From positions 62,001 through 126,000 of the forward strand of contig JANDJZ010000123.1 in the NCBI GenBank assembly GCA_027943245.1: a DNA stretch of 64,000 nucleotides, read 5' to 3'. The notes beneath the pieces are model-generated. The model was not told the origin of the DNA, did not search any database, and worked only from the letters and a program-made list of their open reading frames with translations. The DNA is from Acanthamoeba sp. SK_2022b (taxonomy: Eukaryota; Discosea; Longamoebia; Acanthamoebidae). Position 1 is the stretch's first letter. Every line of letters begins with the position of its first letter. Shown piece by piece: positions 3,524 through 63,855 of the stretch. A program made the translations under genes and the position numbers.

Positions 3524-4571
3524 CTAGACTTGAGTATAGTCGTCGTTTCGTGCCTTCTTCTTCCGTTTGCTGCTGTTCGCTCGCTTGGCCTCGCGTTCCA
3601 CCCGGTACGCCACTTCGCGGTCCTCCTCCAGGCTTGACAGGCTCACGTCGGCAGCACATCCTGCAGGCATGAGATCGAACGTAACGTCGGCGCGCTGGGC
3701 GTGGGCCAACACAACACAGAAAACAAGCCAAGTGGTTACCTGCCACTGGGCACGTGGTGCCCTTTCGCTTGTTGATGGATCTGATGTGGGCCACGATGGC
3801 CTCCTTGCTGTAGAGGTGCCCGCACACGTTGCTGATACGACGAAAGTAGTGCGCATGCGTGTTATGAGATAGGCGATCGGCCTCAAGCGTGGGAAGGCAG
3901 TGCGGGGAGGGAAGTATACTTCTTGACTGGATTGACGAGCAGCTTGCGCGTGATGGGGCACATGAGAGTGCTTTCGTCTTGTGTTGCCATCACCACGAGA
4001 TCGTCGTCCGCTTCGTCGGGCAGCGCTTCATCGGGGTGGTGCACTTTCTGGATGGGTAGCGCTCATGAGCACCAGAGGCTAGGGGGCAAGGAGGGGTGGG
4101 CTCCGTACCCACACTTTCTGGCGGAACTCGCGGTATCGCGGATGCCTCTGAAACTGTGCCTCCTCTTCGGCTGCTTCCGCGTGTCGTCTGTCAATCATCT
4201 CCACCAAATCTGTATCATTCTGTGGCGGGGGTGAGAGAACGGAGAGAGAGAGAGAGAGAGAAGAAGAAGAAGCGTACGTCTTCATTTCGAAGCACGTTTC
4301 GAACTTCAGCGATAATGGTCGTGTGATCCTGGAGGCGCTTCTCCATGTTGATGTAGGATTGCATGGCTTCCTCCAAATTCTTTACCTGATAAACGGAAAG
4401 ATGTTAATTTCAAAATCGTGTCTACTGATAGTAAGCACTTACTTTCTCTCCTTCACCTTGCTCCTCCAATGCAACCGCCACCTCTGTGGCGAGGGTCATG
4501 GCAATCGCCAGTTCATCTTTGATGGCCTTGTGCTTGCCGCCAAGCCTATCCAGTTCCCGCTGCAGCTGCAT
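3524..4571 (-). CDS. NSE2: NSE2/MMS21 SP-RING SUMO E3 ligase of the SMC5/6 complex
   Basis: Six exons with in-phase GT-AG introns give a protein of roughly 230 residues. The N-terminal half is helical (MQLQRELDRLGGKHKAI onward), as expected for the part that docks on SMC5. The C-terminal half is an SP-RING: CPITRKLLVNPVK, then VCGHLYSKEAIVAHI, then TTCPVAGC. These give the Cys, Cys-His and Cys-Cys ligands of this single-zinc RING. The tail is Lys/Arg-rich and ends DDYTQV. NSE2 sumoylates chromosome-maintenance proteins during repair. The start at 4571 is the first ATG of the helical frame. The Nudix gene begins 76 bp away on the other strand, so the two share a short divergent promoter. One intron carries a (TC)n tract. 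Confidence 0.85.
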
Positions 4572-55155: not shown

Positions 55156-56620
55156 ATGACCGACTCGTCGAAGGTGATCGTGTGCGACAACGGCACGGGT
55201 TTCGTGAAGTGCGGCTTTGCCGGCTCCAACTTCCCCGCCTCCATCTTCCCGTCTATGGTGGGCAGGCCCATCCTGCGTTCCGAGGAGAAGTTCGACAACG
55301 TCGAGATCAAGGACATCATGGTCGGCGATGAGGCCTCCAAGCTCAGGTCCATGCTCCAGATTACCTACCCGCTCGACAACGGTATCGTCCGCAACTGGGA
55401 GGATGCTGAGCACGTCTGGAACTACACCTTCTTCGGTACCATACCTGGCCCTTGCCGATTTTACTTCCCTACATCAAAGGGATCGAATGAACACTGCAGC
55501 AGGCAAATTGGTTTCGTCCATTGCTTTTGACTCACTGTTTCCTTCATGCTGAACAACAGAGAAGCTGAAGGTGGATCCCAAGGACTGCAAGATCCTGCTC
55601 ACTGAGCCGCCCATGAACCCCCTCGCCAACCGCGAGAAGATGGTCCAGGTCATGTTTGAGAAGTACGGCTTCAAGGCCGCCTACATCGCCATTCAGGTAC
55701 GTTGCCGGATTCAGCAATTCTTTGAAATGGTGTCGCACTGCATTCGCTCACAACGCGCTATGTTCGATGTTGTGTCTTCTATAGGCTGTCTTGACCCTGT
55801 ACGCCCAGGGTCTGTTGACCGGTGTGGTCGTCGACTCAGGTGACGGTGTGACCCACATTGTGCCCGTGTACGAGGGCTTCTCTCTGCCCCACTTGACTCG
55901 TCGTCTCAACGTCGCCGGTCGTGACGTCACTCGCTACCTCATCAAGCTTCTCCTCCTCCGCGGCTACGTCTTCAACAGGACTGCTGACTTCGAGACCGTC
56001 CGTCAGATCAAGGAGAAGGTGTTATTCTCTTTCTTTCTTTTATTTAATTCTTTTCCCCGCCGCGTAATCTTGTTGACTCCAACTCACACCTTGGTTTCTA
56101 CCAGTTCTGCTACGTCGGCTACGATCTCGAGCTCGAGAAGCGCCTGGCCCTCGAGACAACCACGCTCGTGGAGAAGTACACTCTGCCCGACGGTCGCGTG
56201 ATCCGCATTGGTGCCGAGCGATTCGAGGCTCCCGAGTGCATGTTCAACCCCGCGCTCGTCGACCAGGAGAGCGTCGGCGTCGGAGAGCTCGTCTTCGACT
56301 GCATCAACAAGGCCGATATCGACACGCGCGCTGAGTTCTACAACCACATCGTGCTCTCTGGCGGTTCGACGATGTACCCTGGTCTTCCCTCGCGCCTCGA
56401 GAAGGAGATCAAGCGCCTCTACTTCGAGCGCGTGGCCAAGGGCAACAAGGTCTCGATGCAGAAGTTCAAGTGCCGCATCGAGGACCCGCCGCGCAGGAAG
56501 CACATGGTGTTCCTCGGCGGTGCCGTGCTCGCCGAGATCATGAAGGACAAGACCGCCTTCTGGATGAACAAGGCCGAGTACGAGGAGCAGGGCCCCCGCG
56601 TTCTCCGCAAGTGCTTCTAG
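55156..56620 (+). CDS. ARP2: Actin-related protein 2 (Arp2/3 complex)
   Basis: Four exons give about 390 residues. [20 protein letters not shown] holds the first phosphate loop; [18 protein letters not shown] the second; [19 protein letters not shown] the adenosine-side motif. The end [14 protein letters not shown] replaces the KCF tail of actin in the same position. Arp2-specific text ([23 protein letters not shown]) separates it from actin and Arp3. With Arp3 and five other subunits it nucleates branched actin filaments at the leading edge and endocytic sites. Codon use is strongly C-ending, as for an abundant protein. Confidence 0.97.
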
Positions 56621-56879: not shown

Positions 56880-58022
56880 TCAATGCGGAGAAGAGAGGGA
56901 GAGCGGGACGATGGTCTTGGTGCCGGCGGCGTGGGCGCGGGCGTAGTCAAAGGAGGCAAACTTGGAGAGGAGGTCGGTGAGGGTGATCAGGCCGACAGGT
57001 CGTTGCTGCTGGTCGACCACCCACACGCGGTGGACGCGCGAGCGCAGCACGAGCTCCATGACCTCCATCAGCGTGGCGTCGGGGGTGCAGGTGACCAGGT
57101 TCTTGGGCCTGGCCGGGTCGCTCTCCTGCACTCGGGCCAGGAACACCTCGACGGGCTCGCGCAGCAGGTGGACAGTGTCGGGCGCGATGCCGCGGAGATC
57201 GGACGCCGACAGGTTGTACAGGAGGCGCTGGCCGCCCAAGTCGCCGGCGCCTATAATGCCGATGGCGTGGACGCCAGACAGGGCCAGCGTGCGGAAGGCC
57301 TCCAGGGCCGTCCTGCCCTCCTCGGCCGAGTAGATGAGGGTCTTGGCCGCGCTCTGCGCGGGAACGGGCGATGGCGAGGCCAGGGTTGGGGCGGTAGCGG
57401 GCGCCGGGCCGACCATGCCGAGGGCGGCGACGCTGCTGGTGATGAGGTGGTGGTTGAGGTTGCGCTTGTGCTCCGCCAGAAAGCGAACCAGGTCGATCTG
57501 GGCCACCAGGCGGTAGTGCTCGAGCCGCTGGCCCTCCTCGTCCTCATCCTCTGGCCACACCCGCACGAGCGCACGATGGAGCCCCTGCGCCATCTGATCC
57601 AGCAGCGAGCACACCGAGTCGAGGTGACGCTTCAGGACCAACGTGCTATGGCCGAGGCGGTGCTTCTCGTTGAGAACCTCCACTATCGCCACCTCGTTCA
57701 TCTTGGCCTTTAACTCTAGGTCAGAGTGCGTTTGCTGTTCACCTCCCTTGTCGAAGAAGTGCATCGTGCCCCAACTCAGATAGGCGCATATGTCGAGGAT
57801 GTCGGCCAGCCCGAGGATGCGACGCTTCTCTTCGTCGTAGATGGGAAGAGAGAGGAAACTATGAGTCTTCATCAGCTCGCAAGTGGCGGCGATTGAGGCT
57901 TGAGGCCCAACCCATACAATGGGTGGGGCTTTCTCCACGACTGAGGCCAGGGAAGAGAAGGCCATAAAGTCGTTCTGGCGCCCGTGCAGCCCCTCCATGT
58001 GATGTACGATTTTGCTCGACAT
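56880..58022 (-). CDS. CBS-domain protein, AMPK-gamma/SNF4-like, intronless
   Basis: A single uninterrupted 380-codon frame, unusual in this intron-rich window. Four CBS-type repeats can be seen: around VVEKAPPIVWVGPQAS and FLSLPIYDEEKRRILG; the weak second repeat near LEHYRLVAQIDLVRFL; the third near GRTALEAFRTLALSGVHAI; and the fourth, CTPDATLMEVMELVLRSRV followed by HRVWVVDQQQRPVGLITL. This is the pattern of two Bateman modules, as in AMPK gamma subunits, which bind adenine nucleotides. A Pro/Ala linker divides the halves. It could instead be a plant-type CBSX protein. Lack of introns suggests retroposition or simple loss. Confidence 0.78.
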   Translation of the reverse strand: MSSKIVHHMEGLHGRQNDFMAFSSLASVVEKAPPIVWVGPQASIAATCELMKTHSFLSLPIYDEEKRRILGLADILDICAYLSWGTMHFFDKGGEQQTHSDLELKAKMNEVAIVEVLNEKHRLGHSTLVLKRHLDSVCSLLDQMAQGLHRALVRVWPEDEDEEGQRLEHYRLVAQIDLVRFLAEHKRNLNHHLITSSVAALGMVGPAPATAPTLASPSPVPAQSAAKTLIYSAEEGRTALEAFRTLALSGVHAIGIIGAGDLGGQRLLYNLSASDLRGIAPDTVHLLREPVEVFLARVQESDPARPKNLVTCTPDATLMEVMELVLRSRVHRVWVVDQQQRPVGLITLTDLLSKFASFDYARAHAAGTKTIVPLSLSSPH

Positions 58023-58328
58023 TTGAAGATTCTTACTCGAGCAACAAGCAAGTTGAGAGCTGTTTGCGACTGTCTAAATGGCATGGCTTCCATCTTGTCT
58101 TGAGCCACGAATGTCGTGTCCCTGCGAATCTTGTTGGTGTTTTGGCGGTTCGTGGGCGAGTTTCCCGCCCTTTCGTGTCGACGGTGTCTGTTTTTTGTTA
58201 TTTTATTTTGCTCCACAACTTGTGTTTCGGCTGGCGCAGGCAAGCCGATTCCTTTCGAGGTTTGGTGCGTTGCCTGCACATTGCCTCCATTCTGGAGCTC
58301 GAACAGGACGTGTAGTACTATCGAGAAG

Positions 58329-59113: not shown

Positions 59114-60114
59114 ATGGACCACAACAAAGCGATCCCCCTCACCAGCGAGAAAATCAAAAACTATCTGAAGAACTTGAGAAGTGAGCAGCTCGCCTCCGAT
59201 GTCCTCAACCAAACCCTTGACCTGGCCAAGGAATTCAGATCGAAGGACTACCCGCTCATCCATCTGCTTCTCCAGAACCCGCTTGCCGAGCTCATCTCGG
59301 CCGCCGTTCCTTCACCCTCTTCGCGTACCCTTCCATCTTGCTTTGCCGTGTTTGTCATGTCGTCTTCCCTCTTGCAAGACTTAGCTTGTTCATCTCCACC
59401 AGTCGTCGTGAACCCGTCCGAGGGCACAGTCCCAGGCTTCTTGTACCTCTTTGATGCCCGTGTGCCCATAGAAAGGCGAAGGGTGCGTTTAAGTTGGCGT
59501 GCGCACCGCCATCTCCGTTGTGCTCAGGCGTGCCTCCCATGTTGTGTGCTTCTCTCTCCAGTCTGATGAGATTCGATGGAACGACTCGAAGAAGATGTCG
59601 GTGAAGCTGATCATCTTCAACGAGAGCAGCGGCATGTACAAGCTCAAGAACAATAAGAACGACGAGGGCGCCGTTGTCATGCGGCGACAAACGTGGAGAG
59701 CCGACGGCGGCGATAAGGGTACTGCTGCCACAACCACAGTACAGCAGCTCATGAAAGCGTTTCCCACACGGCCTTACACATCTCGCGTCCTCGATCTCCT
59801 CGCCAGGCTGGAGGCGCAATGAATACAAGCTCGTGGTGAAGGAGACCTACTTCAAACAGGCCTCGGTAAGGAGAGAGAGAGAGAGAGAGAGAGAGCTGGC
59901 TCCGCGTGTTTCAATTGATGTGTCGCGTGCCTGGTGTTGTTGCGCTCGCTAACCCGCGTCGCATCGATCCTCTCAACTACGCGCTGCAGGACGGCCGATT
60001 GTCCGTCACGGAGGGCCAGTCGCTGCAGGAGTTCCCAGTGCTCGTCCACTACTTTTGGAAGAAGTGCGCGCCCTCCTTTCATGTCGTTCGTTGTTTGCGA
60101 TCGATCACTAATCG

Positions 60115-60151
<37 letters not shown>

Positions 60152-62861
60152 AGGTCGTACGTACCACGGCAGCCCCGGCTCGTGGGAACAGGCGCTCACC
60201 GAACGTGGTCCCTTTCCCCTTTCTCTTTCTCTCTCGCGTCGTGCAGGGAAGCGAGCGGCCACCCGCGCAAGAAGAGGAAGAGGGGCAACTCGTTCAAGGC
60301 CGAGGAGGAGGACGCGGAAGAGTCGCCAGAGCACCACTTTGGCGAGCCCGAGCACGTCATGACCATGACGTCCCTCCTCGCGCACGGTTCCGCACCGTCC
60401 GCCATGGCGCCTTCCAGCGGTCCCTCGTTCCTCTCCTCGACCCCCTCGACTGCCTCATCGTCCTCCTCGTCCTCGACCTCTTCCTCTGTGCCGCCCATGG
60501 CCATGAACGTACGCGGCAAGCGCGAGAGAGAAGGCCACAACAGCATGATCGCCTCTGCGCCGCGCAACTTCATTCCTCACCCCGACACCCACAGCCTCGA
60601 GGACTCGCAGCAGGTTGGCCGCCTCGCCCTTTCGTGTTCTATTCTATTCTATTTATTCCATTTTATTTTATTTTATTTTATTTTTATCATTTATATTGCG
60701 ATGAGATGGGGCCACCGTTCGATTGCTCACGTGTTGAGGCCTTTTTCCCTGGCAGGGCCCCACGCAGATCATCGACGACGACGAGCTGCTCTACTCGTCG
60801 TCGTCGTCTTCGTCGTTGGGGATGTCCCGAGGGATGATGTCGAGGAGCCTGGAGCGAATGCCGAGCTTCTCCGCTGCGCCCACGACTCCGTCGCTGCAGT
60901 CGCCGTCGACCATGTTGTCCCTCAACTCGCCCTCGATGGGGCCCTACTCCAACGCCGTGTCGACGCCCTCCTTCTACACTCCGCGCATGTCGGTCAAGAG
61001 CGAGCCCGACGAGGATGACTTCTCCCTCTCCACCGACATGGTGTACGTCTATCCCGTCGCCCATTCAGTGAGCGCTGCGGCTTCACGCCCACGCCTACGC
61101 CTAGGAACAAGCATTGATATCCTTTGCGCGATCTCCCGATTGCAGGTTCACCTCGCGCGTCGAGAACGGAGCCCTCGTGCCCTTTACGCCCGTCCCGTCG
61201 TCGATGGGCGCCCCCTCGGCCAGCGACAGCACGGGGCCCAGGCCCGCGGAGATCAAGAGCTACGCGCCCGAGGCCGGGTATGGACACTCCCTGCACGCTG
61301 CTCGCGGCTATGTCCGTTGCGCGGTAGAACCGTTCCGTCTCATTTCCTTCTGCCTTTTCTCAGCCCATCGACCGAGTACACCAAGATGATACTGGTCCAT
61401 AATGGCTTCCACATGAGCGACGACAAGTCCTATCGCTTCTCGTGCCTGTTCGAGGAAGTCTCCGTCCCGTGCACGGTGCGTTTCCTCTCTCTCTCTCTCT
61501 CTCTTTCCCCTCCCCAAATCCGGACCGTGGAACAGGTTGTCTCCCTTTCGTCCACTCGGCTTACCTCGGCGCCTGTGCGGTTCCTATGTTGCTTTGCCGC
61601 AGGAAATCGCGCCGGGAGTCGTCCAGTGCCAGGTGCCTCCGCACAAGCCCGGGATCGTCTACTTTTGGCTGGCCTGCATCGAGGAAGGCAGCGACACCGG
61701 TACTCGCCTTACTTCTTTTTCTTTTATGTTTGTCGTGATCATTATCATTATTATTATTATTATTCGGACTGGCTCGAGTGTTCTCACGCCGCCATGCGTG
61801 GCGTCTCCTGGCCAGTCGACCTCACCGCGCTGCCCAAGGAGGGCGACACGGTCCAGTATTCCCAGCCCGTGCCCTTCTACTATGCGCCCATGGACCCTTC
61901 TGGTATGTGCCGCAATCTGCTACCTTTGGTGTCCTCGCGACTCTCTCCTGCTGCCGTGTTAGCTCATCGCGCTATGTCCAATCAGGACGTCTGTCCTTGG
62001 CCTGGGAGCTGGTCGGCCACAACGACATCCTGTCGGTCATGAAGCACTTCAAGTACACCGCGAAGGAGCTCGACCTCTCCAACAACGGACTGGCGTATGG
62101 CCCCTGCCTTTTATTTATATTTTAATTATCAATTAGCCATTATTTGTTGTAACTCTTATTTTTTGACGCCTGGCCCGTCTGTAGGAACATCGATTGTCTG
62201 GAGGGCTTCAGGGAGCTGAACACGCTCATCTTGGACAACAACCACCTCACTCACGACACCAAGTTCCCGCCCATGCCAAAGCTGAGAACCCTCTCCATCA
62301 ACCATAACTGGTACGCAGTCATCACACTACCATCATTAATGGACGCAACGCGTTCGCTTCTGCTGACTTGGGTTGGTTGCGGTTGTGGTTATTGCCAACG
62401 AGTGAAGGCTGATCGAGGTCGACAAGTTCCTGGACAACATCGTGGCATCTGCGCCCAACCTGCGCTACTTGTCGACGCTGCACAACGCCGCGTGCCCGTT
62501 CTTCTCCTCGGCCAAGCACCACTACTACAACTACAGGATCTACATCCTGAGTCGCTTGCGCAAGCTGACCCATCTCGACAGCTCACCGGTCACCATGGAG
62601 GAGTGGCGGCATGCCGAGTGCATCATGCCGAGTACGTCCGCGCCTCGCCGCGTGTGCAGTCGATTGACCTCTCGTCGCTGGGTACTCACCCCTCTTTTCT
62701 CTGCCTTGTAGGCGGCGAGGCCGCGCCCACCAGCACAAGCGGCATTGAAGAATTCAACCTGGTCGACGATGAGGTGCGTCTTCCCCCATCGCAGCGGCCC
62801 GCGGTCAGCGTTGTTGCATGGTTGTTCTCACTGTGCGCCTTCTCACCCATAGGATCTGTGA
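59114..62861 (+). CDS. IPT/TIG-domain protein fused to leucine-rich repeats
   Basis: About 14 exons, all joins in phase. Order: a helical N-terminus (MDHNKAIPLTSEKIKNYLK); an unrecognised domain beginning NPSEGTVPGFLYLFDARV and ending FPVLVHYFWKK; a basic nuclear-localisation-type cluster HPRKKRKRG; a long Ser/Pro-rich region; a TIG domain (IKSYAPEAGPSTEYTKMILV, FSCLFEEVSVPCTEIAPG, CQVPPHKPGIVYFWL, QPVPFYYAP); then leucine-rich repeats (ELDLSNNGLANIDCLEGF, LNTLILDNNHLT, LRTLSINHNW) with a C-terminal LRR cap like LRMDA. The TIG resembles that of CAMTA calmodulin-binding activators. TIG domains sit in transcription factors and LRRs bind proteins, so a nuclear regulator is inferred. Introns near 59880 and 60120 contain GA, TC and TG tracts. 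The start could lie upstream. Confidence 0.78.
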
Positions 62862-63288: not shown

Positions 63289-63855
63289 GTGGAACAGGTG
63301 ATCGCTTCGCTGGAAGAGGAGAATCGCGCACGAAAGGTGCAGCAGACCATGCTGGAGGGCCAGCAACGCGAAATCGAGAAGCTCAAGAAGGAAGTGGAAG
63401 CGCTGAAGGAACAGAGTCATGGTCCGCGTGACTGCTCTGCTAGCATAACTCTCCTGTGTGTGCTCGGCTCGTGGTTCCCGCCTTGGCAGGTTTGAAGGCC
63501 CGAATGGCGTGGCGGTGGACTCTGCTGGCAACATCATCGTGGCCGACGATCATCGGGTGCAGGCGTTTGGCGCAGATGGGTCGTTCATCCGTGCGTTAGG
63601 TGCCATCGACGGGGACAGACTCCCTTGTCCTCGTGGCGTGGACTCGGCAGGCAACATCGTCGTGATCTGCGCTTATCAGCTGCAGGTGTTTGGTGGCTGC
63701 TGGGTCGTTCATCCGTGCATTTGGTTTCTGTGGCAGTGGACGCGAGGGGTCATCTCATCTTGTCCGACACAGGCACTCACCAGGTGTCAGTGTTACTAAA
63801 CCCACAAGGGAGTGAAACAATAAAGGCTAACCCTTGGATGGACTGTCTTGCATAA
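63289..63855 (+). pseudogene. NHL-repeat protein remnant (coiled coil plus broken NHL repeats)
   Basis: The first exon encodes a coiled coil (IASLEEENRARKVQQTML), as in TRIM-NHL-type proteins. After an apparent intron come NHL units: FEGPNGVAVDSAGNIIVAD, a second unit with VDSAGNIVV, and a third, VAVDARGHLILSDTGTHQV. The units lie in different frames, so the propeller is frameshifted. Only about three of the usual five or six units exist and no RING or B-box lies upstream. AATAAA occurs at about 63819. A fragment or decaying gene is the best reading; unusual splicing could restore part of it. Confidence 0.5.

Follow-up and report, generated by a model that had tools for sequence, protein, structure and literature searches.

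The window analysed here, a 64,000-nucleotide stretch from Acanthamoeba sp. SK_2022b, contains a gene for a protein in which a TIG domain is joined to leucine-rich repeats (LRRs) (Table 1). All 16 introns are GT-AG and in phase, measure 78-142 nt and total 1,552 nt, and the spliced frame has a single stop at 62859-62861. The in-phase splice sites and uninterrupted frame that the first-pass annotation had reported across the TIG and LRR exons are thus borne out.

Table 1. Parts of the TIG-LRR gene and neighbouring features, in window positions
Feature	Position	Strand	Details and basis
Whole coding gene	59114..62861	+	17 exons, 731 aa; collinear with P0001
Gene exons 1-9	59114-59324, 59403-59482, 59562-59718, 59807-59865, 59990-60063, 60154-60156, 60247-60613, 60756-61042, 61146-61277	+
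Gene exons 10-17	61364-61475, 61603-61699, 61816-61902, 61986-62094, 62185-62310, 62408-62631, 62712-62773, 62853-62861	+
N-terminal domain, probably divergent CG-1-like	59219..60063	+	aa about 36-193, 5 exons; profile comparisons, AF2 confidence
Micro-exon GTC, 3 nt	60154-60156	+	Completes Lys194, begins Ser195; Ser in P0001 and P0002
RKKRKR, nuclear-localisation-like basic cluster	60266..60283	+	Directly after N-domain; regex
Low-complexity Ser/Pro/acidic linker, predicted disordered	60284..61242	+	P0001 pLDDT below 50, about 197-443
TIG domain, CAMTA type	61243..61889	+	aa about 446-551; Pfam, Foldseek, profile search
LRRs and C-terminal cap	62012..62713	+	aa about 565-709; Pfam, structural matches
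Last coding exon, 9 nt	62853..62861	+	Asp-Leu-stop; P0001 ends likewise
Arp2 gene piece	56048-56617	+
ORF with CBS domains	56883-58073	-	Placed divergently; Pfam 3e-20
ORF with one NHL repeat, perhaps a gene piece	63449-63796	+	1.3e-05

The first Pfam scan, the protein search and the first alignments used an initial model of 16 exons and 730 residues. This version reads WKKEASG across the join of exons 5 and 6, where the related proteins P0001 and P0002 read WKKSEASG, with one Ser more. The 183-nt apparent intron at 60064-60246 was searched for segments of at most 39 nt that keep the frame, lie between AG and GT and stay at least 20 nt from its ends. Two candidates emerged, one of which, GTC at 60154-60156, gives exactly the missing Ser and sits between two 90-nt GT-AG introns. 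Because the Ser of P0001 and P0002 is absent from the 16-exon model, this 3-nt exon was included; exons as short as this are rare. At the other end of the gene, the window protein finishes in DDEDL and P0001 in DDDDL. An open stretch at 63298-63480, which reads VIASLEEENRARKVQQ... and probably encodes a coiled coil, could follow the exon at 62712-62773 in phase and so form a different gene end. It was rejected and left out because P0001 terminates as the 9-nt last exon does.

The fusion of TIG and LRRs is real. P0001 is 729 aa long, matches the query with 100% cover, has the same start as the spliced model and ends like it. Its contig measures 2,432 nt, while a coding sequence with introns like those of the window would need ~3.7 kb, so the contig is too short to hold them. 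From these lengths we infer that a transcript spanning the TIG-LRR join exists in this close relative, running across the join instead of ending between the TIG and LRR exons.

Relatives of the protein are numerous. The protein search returned at least 15 at an E-value of 1.4e-70 or better, and in addition P0016, an LRR protein with E=1.7, which was dropped. A profile search gave 49 rows, consisting of 14 family members (six of them new, P0021-P0026), 13 CAMTA proteins and 22 LRR proteins, the last dropped from the family count. Thus the search for the joined protein in other proteomes, suggested in the first-pass annotation, found a family of at least 21 database proteins, the member counts being lower bounds because scoring was confined to the candidates with most words in common (7,986 and 7,990). 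Eighteen of them have the N-domain, TIG and LRRs in the same order, which argues that the join did not arise by chance. The other three are incomplete: in P0026 the first part of the N-domain is missing, while in P0002 and P0023 the whole or almost the whole domain is gone, as if these were fragments truncated at the N-terminus. P0004 and P0005, which come from Balamuthia, nearly duplicate each other. P0005 seems to read through an intron and was left out of the sets A2, A4, A5 and famN; P0002 was omitted from A4 as a fragment, and P0002 and P0023, whose N-domain is absent, from the N-domain work. The named members, from Balamuthia (phylum Discosea) and Planoprotostelium (phylum Evosea), represent two amoebozoan phyla.

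Pfam recognised LRRs in all 16 members scanned and TIG in nine. In the members without a Pfam TIG match the domain is seen in alignments, and that of P0021, P0024, P0025 and P0026 was recognised solely through visual inspection and a short anchor pattern. Identities between the window protein and P0001 are 157/158 in the N-domain, 200/244 aligned positions in the linker, 102/106 in TIG and 156/158 in the LRRs and cap; with Balamuthia P0004 they are 105/151, 80/245, 63/100 and 114/157. These comparisons indicate that the three domains are kept and the linker less so. None of the matches listed in a search of open-access papers describes a TIG-LRR or CG-1-LRR protein. Two other places with TIG in the host genome (L001 and L002) were set aside as unlike the TIG-LRR family by eye.

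The TIG domain is of the CAMTA type, as the first-pass annotation had proposed. Above the Pfam cut-offs, the window protein matches TIG, LRR_4 and, marginally (30.7 vs 30.5), LRR_9. When a profile of 14 TIG pieces was compared with solved structures, CAMTA1 (2cxk) was the top TIG chain at E=1.5e-10, followed by COE1 at 0.012, and Foldseek likewise placed 2cxk ahead of every other TIG chain for the AlphaFold model of P0001. In the profile search, the only rows to which precomputed Pfam or the protein name assigns a TIG were family members and CAMTA proteins (the latter 13 of the 49), and the CAMTA matches fall in the TIG region. EBF/COE and other TIG transcription factors share with the window protein a TIG that follows an N-terminal domain, but the window TIG is much nearer to CAMTA. 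Among the Pfam matches listed, none of the DNA-binding families of those factors appears in the window protein or the members.

The LRRs have their best structural matches in dynein light chain 1 (LC1), U2A', SDS22 and their kin. They had been called LRMDA-like, a putative likeness that would lie in the short LRR domain and is loosely suggested by the name C10orf11 given by NCBI to two Balamuthia members; the structural matches are to LRRs generally. LRMDA differs in being described, in the available text of PMC12491506, as an LRR domain plus a tail, with RAB32 bound by the LRRs and Retriever by the C-terminal tail, through a C-terminal motif [IL]x[DE]xx[IL]. The acidic C-terminus of the window protein (62756-62861) contains VDDEDL, one residue off the Retriever-binding pattern of SNX17 and LRMDA. 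This candidate Retriever/Commander motif was rejected: the strict pattern occurs in 0 of 22 rows, and a relaxed one, allowing V at -5, in two, the window protein and P0001 (VDDDDL).

The N-terminal domain, taken by the first-pass annotation for a possible new DNA-binding fold, is instead best read as probably a divergent CG-1 domain. Pfam is silent here: hmmscan of the domain gave no match, and among the matches listed (25 of 26 families) no CG-1 was found in the 16 members scanned. The idea arose from reading an alignment and was then tested by hhalign. In one set, 13 N-domains (A2) were compared with four CG-1 pieces of plant and Acanthamoeba type (from the same genome, from P0017, and two Arabidopsis pieces from outside the database). 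This comparison gave 93.7% and a score of 49.3 over 105 columns, reaching LVHY, against a mean of 12.6 and a maximum of 24.2 in 200 column shuffles. When the CG-1 side was limited to database and genome sequences, each of them of the Acanthamoeba kind, the result was 82.7% and a score of 39.6, compared with a maximum of 20.6 in 200 shuffles of the family columns. E-values of 1.9e-7 for the 93.7% set and 9.5e-6 for the set from database and genome each apply to one comparison; multiplication by the number of Pfam families, 24,736, brings them to about 0.005 and about 0.2.

The outcome depends on which CG-1 sequences are used. A set of 15 CG-1 rows, 11 of them animal, gave 49.0% and a score of 33.8 (200 shuffles, maximum 19.5), and a balanced set scored 41.9 against a maximum of 22.3 in 300 shuffles. 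On scanning two family alignments with three gap settings each, values were 78-90% for the balanced set, 79-90% for the Acanthamoeba kind, 88-93% for the two Arabidopsis pieces, 22-54% for the animal-heavy set and 5-17% for animals alone. Single animal pieces gave 6-20% and the own-genome piece 86%. Subsets of the family score lower, with the three Acanthamoeba-group N-domains alone at 23% or 1.3%. As a control, 52 CAMTA stretches outside CG-1 reached a maximum score of 15.9. P0051 and P0052, which lack all or most of CG-1, were left out of the CG-1 sets.

When CAMTA proteins whose CG-1 is complete or almost so were searched with the N-domain profile, the best place lay inside CG-1 in 11 of 11, at scores of 1.1-7.5 bits, which are low. 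A stretch was reported for 75 of 320 shuffled sequences, scoring 9.3 in one of them and 1.5 or less in the others, so the best shuffled sequence exceeds the scores inside animal CG-1. It is therefore the place of the match that is telling and not its score, the eleven CAMTAs being closely related. Solved structures searched with the Acanthamoeba-type CG-1 sequence yielded no CG-1 chain, and searched with the N-domain profile A2 yielded no match. The VIA matches listed for the full-length P0001 model fall mostly in residues 418-710. That model has a mean pLDDT of 65.5. Averaged over ten residues at a time, the N-domain is mostly at 71-91, two blocks being lower (55 and 67), TIG is mostly at 80-91 but drops to 53-66 where it begins and around 521-540, and the LRRs are mostly at about 90; in a control CAMTA fold model CG-1 is poorly resolved, with pLDDT of about 29-41. 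Homology of the N-domain with CG-1 is accordingly probable but not proven, and if it holds, the protein would be CAMTA-like over its first two domains.

Residues tied to DNA binding offer a further comparison. According to the accessible part of PMC10417383, the CAMTA3 residues W26, W75, H88, Y102/Y103, W118 and Y132 were chosen for mutation, and human CAMTA2 K108 and human CAMTA1 K141 are cited as essential for binding. In hhalign alignments, CAMTA3 W75 corresponds to W103 of the window protein (Trp in 18 of the 18 rows with a letter), Y132 to Y190 (Tyr in 18/19) and CAMTA2 K108 to K126 (Lys in 19/19), while H88, Y102, Y103 and W118 are replaced by other residues in the family and W26 either falls outside the alignment or is not conserved. 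The human CAMTA2 numbering is assumed to apply to the bird protein P0034, whose residue 108, the Lys in KLK, was used as K108; one of four alignments to P0034 was too short to reach it. Since the places of W75, K108 and Y132 are kept and those of H88, Y102, Y103 and W118 changed, the family may use part of the CAMTA surface in DNA binding, and its preference may differ. The family would also supply a very divergent CG-1 for comparison: the places common to it and CAMTA (W103, K126, Y156 and Y190) point to the CG-1 core, and the sequence search gave no solved structure of CG-1.

Basic clusters follow the N-domain in 19 of 22 rows, a regular-expression count carrying no chance control, and together with the linker predicted to be disordered they would fit a nuclear regulator. 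In place of the ankyrin repeats of CAMTA the family has LRRs, as had been proposed from the sequence alone: no ankyrin family was found in the 16 members scanned, among the Pfam matches listed (25 of 26 families), nor in the precomputed Pfam matches of P0021-P0026. A relaxed IQ pattern occurs in two of 22 rows at places that are not shared (the N-domain of P0014 and the linker of P0023), and 2-4 times in each of three comparison CAMTAs; a strict pattern, found in 0 of 25 sequences, is uninformative because it is absent from the CAMTAs too. CAMTAs are treated as calcium-calmodulin-responsive factors. As the family shows neither ankyrin repeats nor an IQ pattern common to its members, calmodulin is probably not the input to the TIG-LRR protein.

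With CAMTA, then, the family shares the CAMTA-type TIG, an N-domain that is probably CG-1 kin, the domain order and the long linker between. It differs in having LRRs where CAMTA has ankyrin repeats, in the absence of a shared IQ motif, and in an N-domain from which several aromatic residues of CG-1 are missing and which is longer ahead of LVHY. We favour, with moderate confidence, a nuclear regulator that is related to CAMTA and binds DNA, with an LRR docking module in place of the calmodulin-responsive half; its DNA binding, its nuclear location and the existence of an LRR partner are properties that we infer. The divergent CG-1-like N-domain would contact DNA, the basic cluster would take the protein to the nucleus, the disordered linker may serve as a regulatory or activating region, the TIG domain could support dimerisation or DNA contact, and the LRR solenoid would dock a signalling partner. 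As the LRRs occupy the place of ankyrin repeats and IQ motifs, this partner, and not calcium-calmodulin, probably governs the protein.

Other explanations carry less weight. That two adjacent genes were wrongly joined is scarcely credible: in the window strain the introns that separate the TIG exons from the LRR exons are predictions, but P0001 and other members on contigs barely exceeding the coding sequence join all parts, and the order recurs in both amoebozoan phyla. It is also very improbable that the protein is a trafficking adaptor and not a transcription factor, its LRRs acting as in LRMDA on RAB32 and its tail on Retriever. The C10orf11 name of two members and the near-motif ends VDDEDL and VDDDDL would suit such a role, but the rarity of the motif across the 22 rows does not, and the basic clusters and CAMTA-type TIG point to the nucleus.

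A stronger competitor, though one we still think unlikely, holds that the N-domain is unrelated to CG-1, so that a separate DNA- or protein-binding fold precedes a CAMTA-type TIG and LRRs. The missing Pfam CG-1 match among those listed for the 16 members, the fruitless profile search of solved structures, the weak hhalign results with animal CG-1 and the low profile scores inside CAMTA CG-1 are all consistent with it, as is the change at four of the seven tested CAMTA3 positions, with W26 not kept. Against these stand the hhalign results with plant and Acanthamoeba-type sets, far over shuffles, a domain order as in CAMTA, and KLK, W and HY in matching places.

The 45-Mb host genome also encodes a CG-1 of the ordinary kind (C619:33585-34003), with exons scoring 92.5 bits and 15.9 (below the cut-off), or 108.3 when joined; its contig ends at this gene, so that only the CG-1 part was read and any ankyrin/IQ region lies beyond the end. 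For A. castellanii, the available text of the genome paper (PMC4053784) reports a CAMTA family member and does not mention the TIG-LRR protein of the window. With an ordinary CG-1 protein in the same genome, the TIG-LRR family stands beside such proteins and does not replace them. We suggest, more tentatively, that CAMTA-sister factors are old within Amoebozoa and have exchanged calcium-calmodulin sensing for LRR docking, pairing a similar DNA-binding core with a different signal. If so, in amoebae with both a TIG-LRR protein and an ordinary CG-1 protein, related DNA sites would receive two inputs. A conserved branch in Amoebozoa that combines a CAMTA-type core with a different C-terminal half would demonstrate that the sensing part was exchangeable, making the family a testable model for a change of input in a transcription factor family.

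A stand-alone LRR paralogue with 40% identity lies elsewhere in the host genome (C667:24061-24336), and with it a donor of the LRR part is imaginable. In the surrounding locus (L014, G000:C667:20001-28000), this paralogue occupies about 3752-4490 and beyond, with its own start and with exons joined by eye, downstream of a coding sequence that is WD40-like by eye.
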